A DNA stretch of 6,233 bases from Chloroflexota bacterium (GTDB taxonomy: Bacteria; Chloroflexota; Anaerolineae; Promineifilales; Promineifilaceae), in the NCBI GenBank assembly GCA_024223125.1, contig JAAEOP010000054.1:1-6233 (forward strand), in the 5' to 3' direction. The notes beneath the pieces were generated by a model. It searched no databases and was not told the origin of the DNA. It saw only the letters and a list, made by a program, of their open reading frames with translations. Positions 673 through 6,233 of this stretch are shown here, in pieces. Numbering within the stretch: position 1 is the stretch's first letter; each line of letters begins with the position of its first letter. The position numbers and the translations under genes were made by a program.

Positions 673-1296
673 TCAATAACCAGATTCCTGTGTCGGCCGC
701 CCCCAAAACCAAGCCAACCACACCCCCACCAGACTAAACAACACAAACACCGCTAGAAACGTCAGTTGAATATGGCTGGATTCTGTGGTTCGTACCGGAT
801 TTGGCGGATGCAGCACTAATGCGGCCTGCCCATTCAGCCAAATAATCAGACCAAATAGCAACGGTGGCAGCAAACCAAGCCATCGTTTGGGTGGCAGCCA
901 GGCGAGCAAAACCTGTACGATGAGGGCAATTGCCAACCCATTGAGCGCGGCTGCCATGCGCGGTTCCTGCAGCAGTACCCCACCCCAATTTACCTGTGAG
1001 GCCACCATGCTCATGAAAATGCCGGCGCCGTACACGGCCGTGCCAACCCATCCCACCGTCTTCATCCAACTGTCCCACAAGAGATTGTTTGTGATCGACA
1101 ATAACAAGCCCAAAAAAGCGGCCACGCCTAAACCGGCCATCCCCGCCCAGGTTAGCCCTACATGCACATACACCGATTTTATCCCGTTGCCCAATGTTTG
1201 TTCGTCCGGCCCTAACCAGATAACGGCCGTCAACAACACAAAAATGACAGCCAACACAACCCAGGCCCATTTGGGCGTTTCCCGCGCCCTGGTCAT
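673..1296 (-). CDS. Six-helix membrane protein, divergent CcmC/CcsA-like cytochrome c assembly protein
   Basis: The product has 207 residues with about six hydrophobic segments (near 10-29, 44-68, 79-100, 112-134, 137-155 and 177-198), matching the six helices of CcmC, an inner-membrane haem-handling protein of cytochrome c maturation. The segment SVYVHVGLTWAGM (41-53) resembles the CcmC stretch with its first haem-ligand histidine (here H45). NWGGVLLQEPRM (103-114) sits where the Trp-rich WGTWWVWDPRL motif is expected, but it keeps only one Trp and has EPR for DPR. H163 and H175 before the last helix could stand in for the second histidine. The start at 1296 is preferred over GTG at 1314, because the GGAGGAGG in that 18-base extension is a perfectly spaced ribosome binding site. 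The ATG overlaps the fabH stop as ATGA, implying coupling. Haem binding is inferred. It could also be an unrelated polytopic protein. Confidence 0.5.
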   Translation of the reverse strand: MTRARETPKWAWVVLAVIFVLLTAVIWLGPDEQTLGNGIKSVYVHVGLTWAGMAGLGVAAFLGLLLSITNNLLWDSWMKTVGWVGTAVYGAGIFMSMVASQVNWGGVLLQEPRMAAALNGLAIALIVQVLLAWLPPKRWLGLLPPLLFGLIIWLNGQAALVLHPPNPVRTTESSHIQLTFLAVFVLFSLVGVWLAWFWGRPTQESGY

Positions 1297-2471
1297 GAAG
1301 CGTCCTCCTCCCACGGCTTTTTATCGGCGTCTTTCATACGCGCGTCCGGCGTTGGCGAACCGGCCATCCAGGCGCCCATTCGACGCCGTGCCTTTTTCAT
1401 CTTGGAACGGCCGCGAGCAACCACATACCGCGCCCGCCGCCATTCCCGGCGACGACGGGAAATATCTGGCGGAGTCACATTCCATTTGACCACTGAAGCC
1501 GCCCAGGTCAACCCGCCGCCAAAGCCGACAAAAACGACATGATCATCGGGATGAAGACGGCCGTCGGCTACCGCATCACACAAGGCTATGGGAATGGAAG
1601 CGGCCGATGTATTGCCCATTAAATGGACGTTGGTGAAAAACTTCTCTTCGGAGATTTTTAATCGTTTAGCGGCCGATTCAATAATACGGGTATTAGCCTG
1701 GTGAGGGATAATCAGATCAACATCTTCAATTGTCATATCTGCTTTACGCAAGGCTGCCAGCACGGAGTTGGCTATAACTTTCGTGGCAAAACGAAAAACC
1801 TGACGGCCGTTCATCGCTATCGTATTTTGCTTGTGTCCATTATGTAAATATTCCGGCCCCAACATCGGCATTGGATTGTGGTAAACGGCCGGTAAACTCA
1901 ACAAATCGCCACCCGACCCATCAGAGCGCAAAGTGGAAGCCATCACCCCACCTTCAATGCTGCTGCCCCGGAGTACCACAGCCCCGGCCCCATCGCCAAA
2001 CAAAATACACGTTTCCCGGTCTTCCCAATCCAACACCCGCGACATTGTTTCAGCGCCAATAACCACCGCATTCCGTACAGAACCGGTGGCAATTGCCTGT
2101 GAAGCCATATCCAATCCATACACAAAACCAGAACAAGCCGCGCTTAAGTCAAACGCGCCGGCTTTTACTGCGCCCAGATAATCTTGTACTCGGCAGGCGG
2201 TAGAAGGGAAAATATATTCTGGTGTCGAGGTGGCGACAATAATCAAATCTACCTGTGAGGGATGAATATCGGCTACAGCCAAAGCGCGAGCGGCCGCTTC
2301 AAAAGCCAATGTAGCCGTCGTTTCCCGTTCATCCGCAATATACCGCTGGCGGATACCCGTCCGCCGGGCAATCCATTCATCCGATGTGTCAATAATCCGC
2401 TCTAAATCATGGTTGGTCATCACATGGTCAGGCACATACTTGCCCCAACCGATAATGTGCGCGTATTTCAT
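1293..2471 (-). CDS. fabH: 3-oxoacyl-[ACP] synthase III (FabH) with basic C-terminal extension
   Basis: This enzyme starts type II fatty acid synthesis by condensing an acyl-CoA (acetyl or branched) with malonyl-ACP in the cytoplasm. The thiolase-fold signatures are complete. The nucleophile is C113 in DLSAACSGFVYGL, H257 lies in IIPHQANTRI, and N287 lies in HLMGNTSAASIP. The N-terminal TSDEWIARRTGIRQR (29-43) and the glycine-rich end VFVGFGGGLTWAASVVKW (313-330) are typical. The fold normally ends here, at about 320-335 residues, but this protein continues for about 60 more. That tail has clusters of Arg/Lys (for example SRRRREWRRAR and MKKARRR) and then an acidic end, with no fold I recognise. 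The start ATG at 2471 has GAGGT seven bases upstream. It is the first gene of a leftward cluster with the CcmC-like protein (ATGA overlap) and the cobT remnant. A related KAS III used in secondary metabolism is possible but less likely, since no other biosynthetic genes are visible. Confidence 0.93.
   Translation of the reverse strand: MKYAHIIGWGKYVPDHVMTNHDLERIIDTSDEWIARRTGIRQRYIADERETTATLAFEAAARALAVADIHPSQVDLIIVATSTPEYIFPSTACRVQDYLGAVKAGAFDLSAACSGFVYGLDMASQAIATGSVRNAVVIGAETMSRVLDWEDRETCILFGDGAGAVVLRGSSIEGGVMASTLRSDGSGGDLLSLPAVYHNPMPMLGPEYLHNGHKQNTIAMNGRQVFRFATKVIANSVLAALRKADMTIEDVDLIIPHQANTRIIESAAKRLKISEEKFFTNVHLMGNTSAASIPIALCDAVADGRLHPDDHVVFVGFGGGLTWAASVVKWNVTPPDISRRRREWRRARYVVARGRSKMKKARRRMGAWMAGSPTPDARMKDADKKPWEEDAS
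1304..1311 (-). promoter_or_regulatory. Strong ribosome binding site deciding the start at 1296
   Basis: On the minus strand the sequence reads GTGGGAGGAGGACGCTTCATG. The GGAGG at 1308-1304 is seven bases before the ATG at 1296-1294. This favours the internal ATG over the upstream in-frame GTG at 1314-1312, whose own codons make up the site. It lies inside the end of fabH, so translation of the membrane protein is probably coupled to fabH termination. Confidence 0.75.
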
Positions 2472-2478
2472 ATGTTTA

Positions 2479-2482
2479 CCTC
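2479..2482 (-). promoter_or_regulatory. fabH ribosome binding site (GAGG)
   Basis: The minus strand reads TTGAGGTAAACATATG, placing GAGG seven bases before the fabH ATG at 2471. It supports this start and contrasts with the two rightward genes, which have no such site. Confidence 0.7.
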
Positions 2483-2500
2483 AAGTTGGTGGATGGTTGT

Positions 2501-2540
2501 TGGTTGCTAGTGGCTGGTGGTTTGTACCAGCTACCAACCA
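2501..2540. repeat. Imperfect inverted repeat in the divergent intergenic region
   Basis: The left arm is TGGTTG (2501-2506) plus GTGGCTGGT (2510-2518). The right arm is ACCAGCTAC (2526-2534) plus CAACCA (2535-2540). They pair with one mismatch (a G-U pair in plus-strand RNA), a three-base bulge (CTA, 2507-2509) and a seven-base loop. No T-run follows on either side, so it is not a typical intrinsic terminator. It lies within or just at the start of the predicted fabH leader, and may be a regulator-binding dyad, a leader hairpin or a remnant of an interspersed repeat. Confidence 0.5.
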
Positions 2541-2544
2541 CTTA

Positions 2545-2553
2545 TATATACCA
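2545..2553 (-). promoter_or_regulatory. Candidate extended -10 promoter for the fabH cluster
   Basis: The minus strand reads TGGTATATATAAG, giving the extended -10 pattern TGN followed by TATATA (2550-2545). There is no good -35 hexamer at 16-18 bp, where the sequence is GGTGGG-like. Extended -10 promoters can work without one. Transcription would start near 2538, giving a leader of about 65 bases that begins with the hairpin at 2501-2540. The TATATATA run offers several registers, so the exact site is uncertain. Confidence 0.3.
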
Positions 2554-2582
2554 TAGATCAAAACCCACCCATTTTAGTTCAG

Positions 2583-2610
2583 TTGCGTTCATATTTCACG
2601 GCCGTATAAT
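2583..2610 (+). promoter_or_regulatory. Promoter of the lipoprotein peptidase gene, near-leaderless
   Basis: A perfect TATAAT stands at 2605-2610, with a weak -35 TTGCGT at 2583-2588 and 16 bp between them. A start site about seven bases after the -10 would fall at roughly 2616-2619, on or next to the ATG at 2619. No Shine-Dalgarno sequence is visible before that ATG. The first T of the -10 is the last base of an ACGGCCGT palindrome (2598-2605), so the palindrome fills the spacer next to the -10. Confidence 0.6.
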
Positions 2611-2618
2611 TCGCAGCT

Positions 2619-4535
2619 ATGAAAAGAATTAACACACAAGCATCGTTGGGGAGTCGAATCCTGTTCATTGTAACATTTTTTCTCATCTGGATGTCAGGCT
2701 GTAGTTTGTTGCCCGGTGGCCATGAAGAGCCGCTTCCCGACCTGATTCTGATGCCGCCACCAACGGCCGCTTATGATTCTTTGACGCGATTGACCCAGGC
2801 TGCCGCCCCGGAACGAGACATGCCCGCTCTGGTTAGCAGTTTTCAGGGGACACCCATTCAGCGCATTGTCGAAGGGGGGTTGCCAGAGACGCCACCGGGG
2901 GAAACGGCCGCATTCTGGGTAACAAATAACGATGACGCCAGCAATCGTCAAATTGACGCCCGTCTTCTAGCACAAACGGCCGATTTGAATATGTGGGTGG
3001 AAGAAGGGCTGCATGTAGATAGTGAAGAACTGCTTGCGGCCGCTAACAAAATTGAAGCGGAAACCTTACCGGCCAACCGCGCCTTTTTTGGTACAGAATG
3101 GCAGCCCGGCATTGACGGCGACAATCGCATCAATATTTTGCACGCCGAAAAGTTGGGGCAAAATGTAGCTGCTTATTATTCTGCTTCAGATGAGATGGTG
3201 ACGGCCGTCAACCCCTTCTCCAACCAACGCGAAATGCTCTATGTTAATATGGATGGTTACAAAATCAACAGCGACGATTATCATAGTACCATCGCCCACG
3301 AACTACAACACCTCATCCAATGGCACACCGACAAAAATGAAGAAGGTTGGATGGGTGAAGGACTGTCTGAACTGGCCTCCTACCTCAGCGGCTACCCGCC
3401 TGACCGGGCGGCCGATTTTGTGGCTCAAACCGATCTGCCTTTAACCAATCTCAGCCAGCAGCCGGATGTAATAGCCGGACATTATGCGGCCGCTTACCTC
3501 TTTGCCAACTACTTCTATGAGCGCTTCGGGGCAGAGGCTACGCAGGCATTGGTCACTCATCCGGCCAATGGGTTGGTGGGGGTAGATGGCGTATTGGCGG
3601 AAATGGGAGAATCGGACACGGCCGTCACCCTTTACGCTGACTGGTTGGCAGATACCTATCTGGCCGGCGCCGGTTATGAGACGCCGTACCAGATTGAGAT
3701 ACCCGCTCTTGAACCGCACATAATCAATCGTTTTCCGGCTGATGGGTTAACGGCCGTCTACCCCTTCGGCGCTGATATTTACCAAATTGAAAATGACAGC
3801 CCCGTTAGCCTTATCTTTACCGGCACACAGCAAACCCGGCTGGTGGATGCTGCGCCCCACAGTGGCCGTTTTGTGTATGCTACGCTGCCGGCCGATGAAT
3901 CTGATATGCGTCTGACACGGCCGTTTGACCTGACTGATTTAGACAGCGCTGCCCTCACCTTTTGGACCTGGTATGACATTGAAGAAGGGTGGGATTACGC
4001 ATATGTCACTGTGTCTAGCGATGACGGCCAGACCTGGGATATTTTGGAAACAGCTTCTACCACGTTAGACAATCCTCAAGGCAACAGCTTTGGTCCCGGT
4101 TACAGTGGACTAAGCGGCGGCGGAGAAACGGCCGTCTGGATTCAAGAAACGGCCGACCTCACCCCTTACGCCGGACAAGAAATTTTACTGCGCTTCCAAT
4201 ACGTCACCGATGACGCCGTGCATGAAGCCGGATTCTTGGTAGATGACATCGCCATCCCCGAATTGGGCTACCAGGATAACGCCGAGCAAGATGGTGGCTG
4301 GCAGGAGGAAGGTCTCATCCGCAGCAGCCACATTTTGCCCCAATCCTTCATCGTGCAGCGCATTTTGTTGACGGATGATGGCCCGGTGGTGGAACAGTTA
4401 CCATTAGATGAGAATAATCAGGCTGTCTGGAAATTTCCATTGGACGGCCGCAACCGTCGGGCTATTCTTATCGTATCAGGCAGCACGGCCGTAACCAACC
4501 AACGCGCCGCTTACCAATATGAGTGGAGAGAATAA
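2619..4535 (+). CDS. Secreted lipoprotein zinc metallopeptidase (HExxH) with immune-inhibitor-A-type jelly-roll domain
   Basis: The 638-residue product begins with a basic N-terminus, a hydrophobic stretch (about 13-27) and a lipobox-like MSGC ending at C28, so it is probably a lipid-anchored exported protein. The catalytic motif is HELQH (H227, E228, H231) in STIAHELQHLIQWH. GWMGEGLSELA follows, where E247, 15 residues after H231, is the likely third zinc ligand. This is a gluzincin pattern, closest in style to M30 (hyicolysin-like) peptidases. I cannot name the exact family. Residues about 434-546 (RPFDLTDLDSAALTFWTWYDIEEGWDYAYV... DGQTW... LRFQYVTD... GFLVDDI) match the beta-sandwich found at the C-terminus of immune inhibitor A peptidases, a likely substrate- or sugar-binding module. 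The last 90 residues are unassigned. The ATG lacks a ribosome binding site and sits right behind a TATAAT, suggesting a leaderless mRNA. It is paralogous to the next gene, 79 bp downstream. Confidence 0.8.
   Translation: MKRINTQASLGSRILFIVTFFLIWMSGCSLLPGGHEEPLPDLILMPPPTAAYDSLTRLTQAAAPERDMPALVSSFQGTPIQRIVEGGLPETPPGETAAFWVTNNDDASNRQIDARLLAQTADLNMWVEEGLHVDSEELLAAANKIEAETLPANRAFFGTEWQPGIDGDNRINILHAEKLGQNVAAYYSASDEMVTAVNPFSNQREMLYVNMDGYKINSDDYHSTIAHELQHLIQWHTDKNEEGWMGEGLSELASYLSGYPPDRAADFVAQTDLPLTNLSQQPDVIAGHYAAAYLFANYFYERFGAEATQALVTHPANGLVGVDGVLAEMGESDTAVTLYADWLADTYLAGAGYETPYQIEIPALEPHIINRFPADGLTAVYPFGADIYQIENDSPVSLIFTGTQQTRLVDAAPHSGRFVYATLPADESDMRLTRPFDLTDLDSAALTFWTWYDIEEGWDYAYVTVSSDDGQTWDILETASTTLDNPQGNSFGPGYSGLSGGGETAVWIQETADLTPYAGQEILLRFQYVTDDAVHEAGFLVDDIAIPELGYQDNAEQDGGWQEEGLIRSSHILPQSFIVQRILLTDDGPVVEQLPLDENNQAVWKFPLDGRNRRAILIVSGSTAVTNQRAAYQYEWRE
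3557..3574 (+). repeat. 18-bp identical segment shared with the paralogue (copy 1)
   Basis: TCATCCGGCCAATGGGTT here is identical to 5808-5825. It encodes the HPANGL block that follows the catalytic domain in both peptidases and supports their origin by duplication. The rest of the two genes is clearly diverged. Confidence 0.6.
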
Positions 4536-4614
4536 GGTACAGACCAACTTCACAATCCACAATTCATTATTCATTATTTCTTACTTGGGTAAGTTATTTA
4601 AGCGCCATTCCTAA
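4536..4614. other. AT-rich spacer between the two peptidase genes
   Basis: This 79-bp gap has a short tandem repeat (ATTCATT twice, 4562-4575) and a small hairpin, CTTAC (4580-4584) and GTAAG (4589-4593) with a TTGG loop. TTATTTAA follows the hairpin. The stem has only five base pairs, so I do not call it a terminator. A weak promoter-like pair, TTCACA (4549-4554) and CATTAT (4572-4577) with 17 bp between, could start transcription of the second gene. Read-through from the first gene is equally possible. Confidence 0.35.
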
Positions 4615-6233
4615 ATGAACGACTACACTCGCATCACCCCAGACCCGCTATCCTCCCCAAATAACAACCGGCGCAACCTGCTTATTGGCGGGGGCTGTCT
4701 CTTATTGTTTATGTGTCTGGCCTGTGCCGGACTGATTGTCGGCATCAGCGGCTACATGGTTTACTTGAACTACGGGGAAGAATTGACGGCCGTCTCCGCC
4801 ACCCAAGAACCCCAGGTTCCCATCACCCCATCACCAGAACAACTAACGGTTGCCACCCGTATCACCCCATCACCTTTGCCCACCTTCACAAATACCCCAT
4901 CTGCCACTCATGACACGGCGCTTGCTGATCCGGCGCTCACGCCCGAAACCACCGAACCGCCCACCCACACGGCCGTGCCCTCACTAAACTTGCCTGTACC
5001 CCCAGAAATCAACCAGACGGCCGTGCCCGCCAACGCCCAAACATATTTAGACCAACTTTACCAGACTGAATACCCCTCTCATGATTATTACCAAACGGCC
5101 CAACATTTGGGCGAACACAATCCGCCCCCAACATTAGACCCACCCCCCGGCCCTTACCAGATTGGCGACAATCACACCTTTTTCAATGACACAGACGCAG
5201 TGAACGCTACGCTGCTGGCGATCACTGACCACGCTTATTTTTGGGTGGAAGATGAACTAAATCTGGACCAGACCGACGTAGCTGAAGCGGCCAATCAATT
5301 TGAAAATGAATATTACGACCGTCTCATCCATTTATTCGGCCAGGTGTGGGATCCGGGCATAGACAACGATCCCCACATCTCCGTGCTGCACATCAGCAAC
5401 AGCGCTGCCGATGAATTGGGCTACTTCAACAGCGAAGATGAGTACATCAGCGACCTTTTTGAATACTCCAACGAGCAAGAAATCATCTATCTCAATATGG
5501 GTGAATTAAACCTGGGTGATGATCTGTATTACGCTACGCTGGTTCATGAAACACAGCATCTCATCCAATGGTATGTGGACCCCAGCGAATCCGTCTGGCT
5601 TAACGAGGGGCTTTCCCAGTTAGCCGAGGTTTATCTGGGCTTCACGGACACGGCCGAAACAATAGATTATCTGCAAAACCCGGCCACCCAATTAAACAAA
5701 TGGAACTATGACGAGGATGAAGTTTATGCCCATTATGCCGCCGCCTTTTTATTTTCCGTTTATTTGTGGGAGCAGTTGGGGGAAACGGCCGTGCAAGAAC
5801 TCTCTCGTCATCCGGCCAATGGGTTAGCGGCCGTTTACGCCATCTTGCAAGGGTACGCCCCCGAAGAGATGACCCTGGAAACATTCAGCGCCAATTGGGC
5901 CGCGGCCAACTTTCTGGATGATTCCCAGGCTGCCCCCCAATATTATTATCGCAACCTCGACTTTCGCCAGCCGTCCTTCCAACACGAAGTCGAAGAGAAT
6001 ACGCCTTTTGAGGTAACAGAATCGCTGAATCAATTTGGCGTCCATTACATTGATCTACGCGATCTGCACGGCGAGACAACCATCACCTTTGCCGCAGACA
6101 CTGCCACCAGCCTCATTGACACGCCAGCCCGTGAAGATGAGATTTTTTGGTACGCTCCGGCCGTCAATGAAATGGACGCTTATCTGACGGCCGGATTTGA
6201 TCTGACGGCCGTAAACCAGGCCAACCTGGGCTA
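4615..6233 (+). CDS. Membrane-anchored zinc metallopeptidase (HExxH), paralogue of the preceding gene, 3' end outside window
   Basis: The reading frame stays open from ATG 4615 to the window edge (539 complete codons). A TAA lies immediately upstream in frame (4612-4614), so this is the earliest possible ATG. There is no Shine-Dalgarno sequence. The product has a short polar N-terminus (1-20) and one hydrophobic anchor (about 22-50, with C28, C34 and C37). A Pro/Thr-rich linker follows to about 145 and probably spans the cell wall or envelope. The catalytic domain has HETQH (H311, E312, H315) and WLNEGLSQLAE, where E331 is again 15 residues after the second His. Shared blocks with the upstream protein include the WDPGID-type turn, HLIQW, and HPANGL (399-404; 314-319 in the neighbour). 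At the edge, FDLTAVNQANLGY aligns with the start of the neighbour's jelly roll, so that domain probably continues outside. The substrate is unknown. A surface protease acting on external protein is inferred. Confidence 0.8.
   Translation, partial: MNDYTRITPDPLSSPNNNRRNLLIGGGCLLLFMCLACAGLIVGISGYMVYLNYGEELTAVSATQEPQVPITPSPEQLTVATRITPSPLPTFTNTPSATHDTALADPALTPETTEPPTHTAVPSLNLPVPPEINQTAVPANAQTYLDQLYQTEYPSHDYYQTAQHLGEHNPPPTLDPPPGPYQIGDNHTFFNDTDAVNATLLAITDHAYFWVEDELNLDQTDVAEAANQFENEYYDRLIHLFGQVWDPGIDNDPHISVLHISNSAADELGYFNSEDEYISDLFEYSNEQEIIYLNMGELNLGDDLYYATLVHETQHLIQWYVDPSESVWLNEGLSQLAEVYLGFTDTAETIDYLQNPATQLNKWNYDEDEVYAHYAAAFLFSVYLWEQLGETAVQELSRHPANGLAAVYAILQGYAPEEMTLETFSANWAAANFLDDSQAAPQYYYRNLDFRQPSFQHEVEENTPFEVTESLNQFGVHYIDLRDLHGETTITFAADTATSLIDTPAREDEIFWYAPAVNEMDAYLTAGFDLTAVNQANLG
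5808..5825 (+). repeat. 18-bp identical segment shared with the paralogue (copy 2)
   Basis: This is the second copy of the segment at 3557-3574 and encodes the same HPANGL residues in the membrane-anchored peptidase. It may be retained by selection on the protein block, or be a trace of gene conversion. Confidence 0.6.

Follow-up and report, generated by a model that had tools for sequence, protein, structure and literature searches.

A highly iterated palindrome with a CGGCCG core and lineage dialects in an order of Chloroflexota and in phages

The closest described counterpart of the DNA word treated here is the cyanobacterial highly iterated palindrome (HIP) HIP1, which has been known since 1995 and has, to our knowledge, no agreed function; its conservation has reportedly been ascribed to selection by Xu, Lawrence and Durand in 2018. 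Other systems of interest are Chi, an over-represented, lineage-specific and polar word read by DNA-processing machinery (RecBCD/AddAB), and Dcm/Vsr short-patch repair, which can raise the frequency of a word. According to the accessible part of PMC4390886 (Elhai 2015), HIP1 is GCGATCGC, alternates in cyanobacteria are TCGATCGA, GGGATCCC, GGCGCC and rCCGGy, and typical cyanobacteria have 300-2,700 copies per Mb with observed/expected ratios (O/E) of 55-228. Here we describe a 6,233-nucleotide (nt) stretch of DNA (contig JAAEOP010000054.1, analysed as a whole and referred to as the window), in which the octamer ACGGCCGT is the local form of a highly iterated palindrome that extends across the order and has CGGCCG as its core.

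The octamer resembles HIP1 in being a GC-rich palindrome with O/E of tens to hundreds and with alternates in single lineages; outer-position deviants, clear in one genome and mild or absent in others, are a less consistent parallel. It differs from HIP1 in phylum and in word, in the occurrence of three octamer dialects and of hexamer-only lineages within one order, in being borne by phages, in its strong imprint on the proteome and in having no consistent cytosine methyltransferase (MTase) associated with it. Apparently, it represents an independent instance of a HIP in another phylum. In the open-licence literature no HIP outside cyanobacteria and no mention of this octamer as one was found, and ACGGCCGT as a whole word appeared in one, unrelated, paper. 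The words phage and Chloroflex are absent from the main text of PMC4390886, and the accessible part of PMC12772301 mentions methylation motifs of sludge bacteria with nothing on this word.

The octamer in the window and in related genomes

The window contains 16 exact copies of ACGGCCGT between positions 1034 and 6212, whereas 200 dinucleotide shuffles yielded a mean of 0.12 and a largest value of 1. The first-pass annotation, which had put the count at more than a hundred times the random expectation, was correct in this respect. In total, 39 CGGCCG and 68 GGCC are present; HIP1 proper (GCGATCGC) was found neither in the window nor in L001-L011 (L denotes loci, G genomes).

The order to which the relatives belong is represented by 56 genomes, and 27 of these (the HIP-rich genomes), which are of the metagenome-assembled genome (MAG) type and possibly incomplete, have 991-2,102 octamers per Mb. 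In the relatives G001-G008 and G014, 6,888-15,176 copies were counted, and the control word, the octamer read backwards, had 40-202. Among 249 sampled genomes of the class, seven exceeded 5,000 copies and the runners-up had 1,727 and 1,189; all these nine belong to the 56-genome order. Typical spacing in these bacteria and in the phages described below is roughly one site, of ACGGCCGT or of a variant particular to the lineage, per 500 to 1,000 bases.

In 160 kb of G003 (loci without overlap) there are 308 copies, or 1,925 per Mb. Markov models of orders 0-4 predicted 3.7, 3.4, 6.5, 11.6 and 33 copies, and the order-2 expectation with CGGCCG masked was 3.9; the excess was about 80-fold where tested. 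Orders 5 and 6 predicted 116 and 257. The first-pass annotation had named a ratio near 1 under a hexamer or heptamer model as evidence against a HIP, and order 6 indeed gives 1.2, but we regard this value as uninformative: the 7-mers from which the octamer is predicted are mostly parts of the octamer itself. By the order-4 z score, ACGGCCGT ranked as the top octamer in all five genomes sampled of those using this form (the A dialect). HIP1-like behaviour, as proposed from the window, is supported by the relatives' entire genomes, where the word occurs in genes of either orientation, in all frames and outside open reading frames (ORFs).

Within the window, four ORFs, some on each strand, contain 15 of the 16 copies, and the other copy is intergenic, as described earlier. 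The minus-strand ORF 673-1314 contains two copies (1034..1041 and 1223..1230), and the fabH gene (1293-2471, minus strand) also two (1557..1564 and 1803..1810). The intergenic copy (2598..2605) is immediately upstream of the plus-strand ORF 2619-4535, which has six: 3201..3208 (Thr-Ala-Val), 3618..3625, 3750..3757, 3917..3924 (in a Thr-Arg-Pro frame), 4128..4135 and 4485..4492. The remaining five (4786..4793, 4969..4976, 5017..5024, 5785..5792 and 6205..6212) are in the plus-strand frame starting at 4618, which is open at the end of the window.

The window FabH (PF08541/PF08545) had matches in Chloroflexota MAGs, with up to 84% identity, and in the FabH tree it was the sister of L001-L003 (support 0.99); judged from sequence, the window is placed near Anaerolineae-type Chloroflexota MAGs. 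The two plus-strand frames (2619-4535 and 4618-6233) are adjacent metallopeptidase-like paralogues (31% identity over 343 amino acids), with HELQH and HETQH motifs recognized by eye and an InhA-like MAM domain in the first. An imperfect dyad was seen by eye in the intergenic stretch 2486-2545, where the repeat finder gave no match. G001-G003, G263 and G264 have dispersed repeats of about 60-70 bp, spread over many of their contigs (e.g. in L097 at about 3638-3709, 4796-4868 and 13788-13855), some matching both strands at one place, like REP palindromes. In G264 a 5.2 kb segment (C1 38513-43677; L229, L230) has no octamer; this segment, whose ORFs are by eye nucleotidyltransferase-like and membrane-protein-like, is possibly a recent acquisition.

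Lineage dialects and codon choice

The CGGCCG core is common to most lineages, whereas the outer base pair varies between them. In fetched DNA the T dialect (TCGGCCGA) accounts for 240 of 341 CGGCCG in G265 and for 275 of 343 in G109, and the G dialect (GCGGCCGC) for 150 of 174 in G196 (in these dialect counts G003 includes L003, which overlaps as part of L094-L095, and 1.4 kb of G014 was counted twice). The hexamer-only lineages G166, G289, G219 and G009-G011 have CGGCCG at 10-17 times the composition expectation, with mixed flanks. G274 uses TGCCGGCA instead (3,665 copies; 14 of ACGGCCGT). The GC-rich G082 group (65% GC) has 3,806 CGGCCG per Mb, barely above the composition expectation, and was not counted as a HIP lineage because composition explains nearly all of these. 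The low-GC genomes G284, G266 and G267 (45-48% in the fetched stretches) have about 1,000 octamers per Mb, making up 75-85% of their CGGCCG. Neither the dialects nor the phages could be seen from the window alone.

When RpoB ORFs of 638 or more amino acids from 50 genomes were placed in a tree, the A dialect fell into a single large clade whose deep support is modest (0.78). Within this clade the word has been lost from G275, which has 155 copies in 4.7 Mb; G268, at 437 per Mb, is intermediate. Retuning of the same sites, considered as a route of dialect change, was not borne out by alignments, in which pairs were not independent and some ORFs overlapped: only 2 of 140 A sites aligned with a T-dialect octamer, none of 11 G sites aligned, and 11 of 51 T sites aligned with some CGGCCG in A genomes, two of these being the A octamer. 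With hexamer-only genomes, the core was kept at 118 of 354 A sites. Since few sites align across the A, T and G dialects, the switches look mostly like turnover. As a separate observation, GCCGGC is nearly absent from G196 (51 copies in 8.0 Mb) and G166 (132 in 4.1 Mb), which looks like restriction avoidance; G270, G274 and G275 are, by contrast, rich in it.

A bias for a codon pair or peptide is one alternative, as 12 of the 15 coding copies in the window encode Thr-Ala-Val; counted over the window's ORFs with a minimum length of 150 amino acids, the octamer spells 12/12 Thr-Ala-Val, 2/3 [YHND]-Gly-Arg and 1/1 Arg-Pro. In the genomes, however, the word is dense outside ORFs: sites per kb inside and outside ORFs of this minimum length were 1.98 and 1.58 in G003, 1.94 and 2.07 in G264, 1.74 and 2.54 in G005, 1.41 and 1.04 in G265, and 1.58 and 1.86 in G109. 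All three frames are used with similar strength. In G003 Thr-Ala-Val is written ACG-GCC-GT in 152 of 154 cases (codon usage predicts 24), and the octamer is used in 82 of 92 [YHND]-Gly-Arg (predicted 3.9) and 38 of 51 Arg-Pro contexts (predicted 0.7). The T dialect writes 129 of 144 Ser-Ala-[Asp/Glu] in G265 with its own word, and Ala-Ala-Ala is written as GCGGCCGC in 79 of 85 cases in G196 but in 3 of 91 in G003. Over codon usage, the log odds of site use were 3.8-6.0 in all three frames, in six genomes and three dialects. These values, together with the copies outside ORFs, show that the force acts on DNA. Thr-Ala-Val bias alone, which the first-pass annotation had named as a way to refute a HIP, is thereby excluded, and the chance that a codon-pair or peptide artefact underlies the pattern is negligible, the other dialects favouring other tripeptides.

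The imprint on the proteome tracks the dialect. Three A genomes had O/E of 7.1, 6.9 and 6.0 for Thr-Ala-Val, and the T and G genomes had 0.8, 1.0 and 1.2; for Ser-Ala-[Asp/Glu] O/E was 4.7 in both T genomes and 0.6-1.0 in A and G genomes, and for Ala-Ala-Ala 4.1 in the G genome versus 1.1-1.8 in A and T genomes. Thus, the word dictates codon choice and even protein sequence.

Phage-borne copies, spacing and conservation of the sites

IMG/VR was scanned for two octamers within 30 bases, which gave at least 120 stretches; 20 dense ones, chosen from the top of the density ranking, correspond to 16 records. As whole records these have 1.1-3.5 ACGGCCGT per kb, with 0-7 copies of the backwards control in all. 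Phage hallmark genes (terminase, portal, capsid or tape-measure) were detected in G293, G294, G295, G298, G300, G301, G302 and G303; G296 has a portal gene in common with G300, G304 is nearly identical to G294, and G297 resembles a conjugative element. No integrase family was found among the 39 of 52 (G302) and 21 of 25 (G300) larger ORFs scanned, which is no proof of a lytic life. Thr-Ala-Val is spelled with the octamer in 74 of 77 cases in G302 and in 49 of 52 in G293. Between G300 and G293 (71% nt identity) sites at identical amino acids were kept in 14/14 and 14/15 cases, compared with 344/920 and 344/1049 for controls, and between G300 and G296 in 13/15 each way. Two relatives found by portal homology, outside the motif-selected stretches, have 1.96 and 2.17 sites per kb, whereas no site is present in six cousins with 48-68% terminase identity or in six relatives of two further phage genes. 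Within a single phage family the word can thus be present or absent, which would be expected were the host to determine it. Octamer-bearing tailed phages appear to infect these Chloroflexota. In the fetched host DNA, the search for CRISPR arrays linking phages to hosts gave one doubtful repeat array. The pair scan for T-dialect phages gave one palindromic pair per contig among the matches listed.

Two further features of the phages were noted. In L506, L507 and L511, from phages related to octamer-bearing ones, there are 0-1 CGGCCG where 10-17 are expected, i.e. the core is avoided. G302 (L365-L367), the phage densest in octamers, encodes PAPS reductase, DUF3440, D12 and N6 methylase families and an SNF2-related domain.

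Genome-wide and strand-symmetric as the word is, it could be a site of chromosome organisation to which one of the host's nucleoid or segregation proteins binds. Spacing in the T dialect is slightly more even than random (G109, coefficient of variation (CV) 0.82, P 0.0005; G265, CV 0.86, P 0.015), and gaps shorter than 75 bp are depleted in the pooled genomes (119 versus 186 expected). In G196 the spacing is random, and in the A dialect it is random or clustered. Phages have the word at host density or above, for which a chromosome-structure role offers no need. We consider such a role improbable. Helical phasing of site pairs was looked for and not found.

Conservation of sites was determined on non-overlapping ORFs of the rpoB and fabH regions, with gene pairs that are not independent. 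Where the encoded amino acids are identical between orthologues, the octamer persisted at 194/196 sites in the near class, 296/310 in the mid, 1381/1501 in the far and 418/437 in the very far class, whereas GC-matched control octamers were kept in 63, 31, 17 and 20 per cent. The conservation at synonymous positions for which the first-pass annotation suggested a check is thus evident (92-99 versus 17-63 per cent). An earlier ortholog set, built on overlapping stop-to-stop ORFs of which some were spurious, had given about 100 per cent bacterial retention. With changed amino acids included, 198/208, 334/377, 1531/2280 and 506/1153 sites were kept from near to very far.

The pattern is all-or-none: one-base deviants of the core stay close to background (for positions 2-4 in G003, 42 observed and about 54 expected), indicating little decay debris. 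Across five genomes no kind of core deviant was consistently enriched or depleted. In having no excess of core deviants the word differs from HIP1, whose 10-mer in Synechocystis has 1,830 one-off copies versus 160 expected according to the accessible part of PMC1939737. One-offs at the outer positions were enriched in G005 (49 versus 9.5 and 34 versus 5.3), mildly in G003 and G265, and not in G109 and G196.

Near-complete saturation at synonymous positions could also be produced without any function, if a mutation or repair process (biased conversion, or hypomutability of the sites) created and protected the octamer. Phages carrying the word share the replication and repair of the host, amino-acid changes at the sites are not consistently slowed, and differences within the near trio are mostly of a single base (17 of the 22 listed, counted redundantly in the overlapping-ORF set), all of which would fit. 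As no core-deviant type is consistently enriched or depleted, such a neutral process would need to recognize the whole octamer, all eight of its bases, and to repair mismatches of many kinds. Vsr, of the Dcm/Vsr short-patch repair systems, was found in 8 of the 56 genomes only, and all ten hits adjoin PF00145 genes. A mutational or repair bias is a less likely cause, and we regard it as unlikely.

DNA uptake sequences of Neisseriaceae and Pasteurellaceae resemble the octamer in having lineage dialects around a constant core (for Neisseriaceae, see the accessible part of PMC3630211) and thousands of copies; competence receptors preferring word-bearing DNA could enrich the word through transformation. 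ComEC is encoded by 50 of the 56 genomes and does not discriminate, as it is also present in lineages that lack the word, for example G270, G271, G274 and G275. In the parts of the sources available, uptake words are stated to be non-palindromic and to have abundant one-off copies (947 versus 86 expected in A. pleuropneumoniae; PMC1939737), and genomic islands of Neisseria are without the host word (PMC7371117). The octamer is the opposite on each count, being palindromic, free of a core one-off excess and carried by phages. An uptake function is very unlikely.

Candidate machinery and possible readings of the word

The first-pass annotation suggested a solitary MTase recognizing CGGCCG or GGCC. 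In a scheme of the kind proposed for HIP1, such a cytosine MTase would act together with methyl-directed mismatch repair, which ratchets neighbouring bases toward the palindrome. In the accessible part of PMC4390886, every cyanobacterial genome with such words has a candidate MTase, and switches of the word coincide with changes of the MTase, an association that does not strictly define a HIP; the outer-position one-offs of G005, and to a mild degree those of G003 and G265, may be likened to those of cyanobacteria. The survey covered the families PF00145 and PF01555. PF00145 (C5 methylase) is present in 14 of the 27 HIP-rich genomes and most of the 27 carry PF01555 genes, but PF00145 is absent from the other 13. 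Among these 13, matches to PF01555 are no more than marginal in G264 and G284 (E about 5e-4) and weak in G014 and G182. G264 is 7.7 Mb long with contigs over 540 kb and 14,867 sites. Incompleteness of a MAG or a methylase of another family, outside the search, may account for some absences. When 30 C5 loci were compared (of 64 PF00145 matches, with ORFs picked by motif), no gene group spanned the HIP-rich clade, similar genes being confined to the small groups G006/G257/G272, G006/G148 and G010/G011/G166/G082. As a universal cause, then, the solitary MTase is unsupported, and the scheme as a whole seems rather unlikely. The C5 methylase of L050, L051, L052 and L071 is itself conserved (65-76%) in G010, G011, G166 and G082, which are hexamer-only or GC-rich genomes.

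GGCC is the core of Dnd phosphorothioation sites in Streptomyces, and Dnd was considered for this reason. DndE was found in 3 of the 56 genomes, all three HIP-rich, and Dnd was rejected as a candidate.

The consistency of the word points to cell machinery that reads it. We tentatively favour a reader protein that is specific for the dialect word and acts on all DNA resident in the cell, though we put its chance at somewhat less than even. It is favoured because the word is read whole in any frame and on either strand, the DNA of phages included. From these features we infer a sequence-specific, probably dimeric protein that would act on the chromosome, mobile elements and phages; DNA short of sites would be at a disadvantage, and a change in the outer contacts of the reader could rewrite thousands of sites, giving rise to dialects. 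What the word most likely does, at a further remove, may be to mark DNA as 'self' or for processing during replication, recombinational repair or the processing of DNA ends. It would be similar in function to Chi, which is also an over-represented, lineage-specific word on the octamer scale. The octamer, being a perfect palindrome, allows no polarity, unlike Chi, and would be readable from both directions. Chi is also about nine times rarer (1,008 copies in the 4.64-Mb E. coli K-12 genome, according to the accessible part of PMC1939737).

A related possibility, to which we give a rather low probability, is that the word serves as a password: a surveillance or DNA-processing machine would spare, or correctly handle, DNA bearing the dialect, and phages and mobile elements of these hosts would have adopted it and share the dialect of the host.

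Several observations weigh against the favoured reader. No gene for it was found. In G196 the density outside ORFs is clearly lower than inside (0.66 versus 1.55 per kb), and in the A dialect the CVs of the spacing are 1.00, 1.12 and 1.01, with random placing in G003 and G005 and clustering in G264. Biased repair or conversion could yield equal saturation. Strong selection on each site should slow amino-acid change too, unless the sites are in permissive positions, whereas Thr and Val at sites were as variable as elsewhere in the overlapping-ORF ortholog set; with non-overlapping ORFs, residues at sites exceeded others in conservation in the near and mid classes, whereas in the far class Thr (0.32 versus 0.76), Ala and Val were less conserved at sites than elsewhere. 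The phage density is inflated by the choice of records with paired sites and high density, and the phages are linked to these hosts only by the shared word.

The natural swaps of one outer base pair, the loss of the word in G275 and its carriage by phages provide comparative material with which methylation can be told apart from repair bias, from chromosome structure and from self-recognition. A DNA word that reshapes proteomes, with Thr-Ala-Val raised up to 7-fold, bears on the interpretation of protein evolution, and in metagenomes the dialect word offers a simple tag by which phages and plasmids can be assigned to their hosts. If the password interpretation is true, it would represent sequence-based, modification-free self-recognition, with dialects that can be swapped by a single outer base pair.

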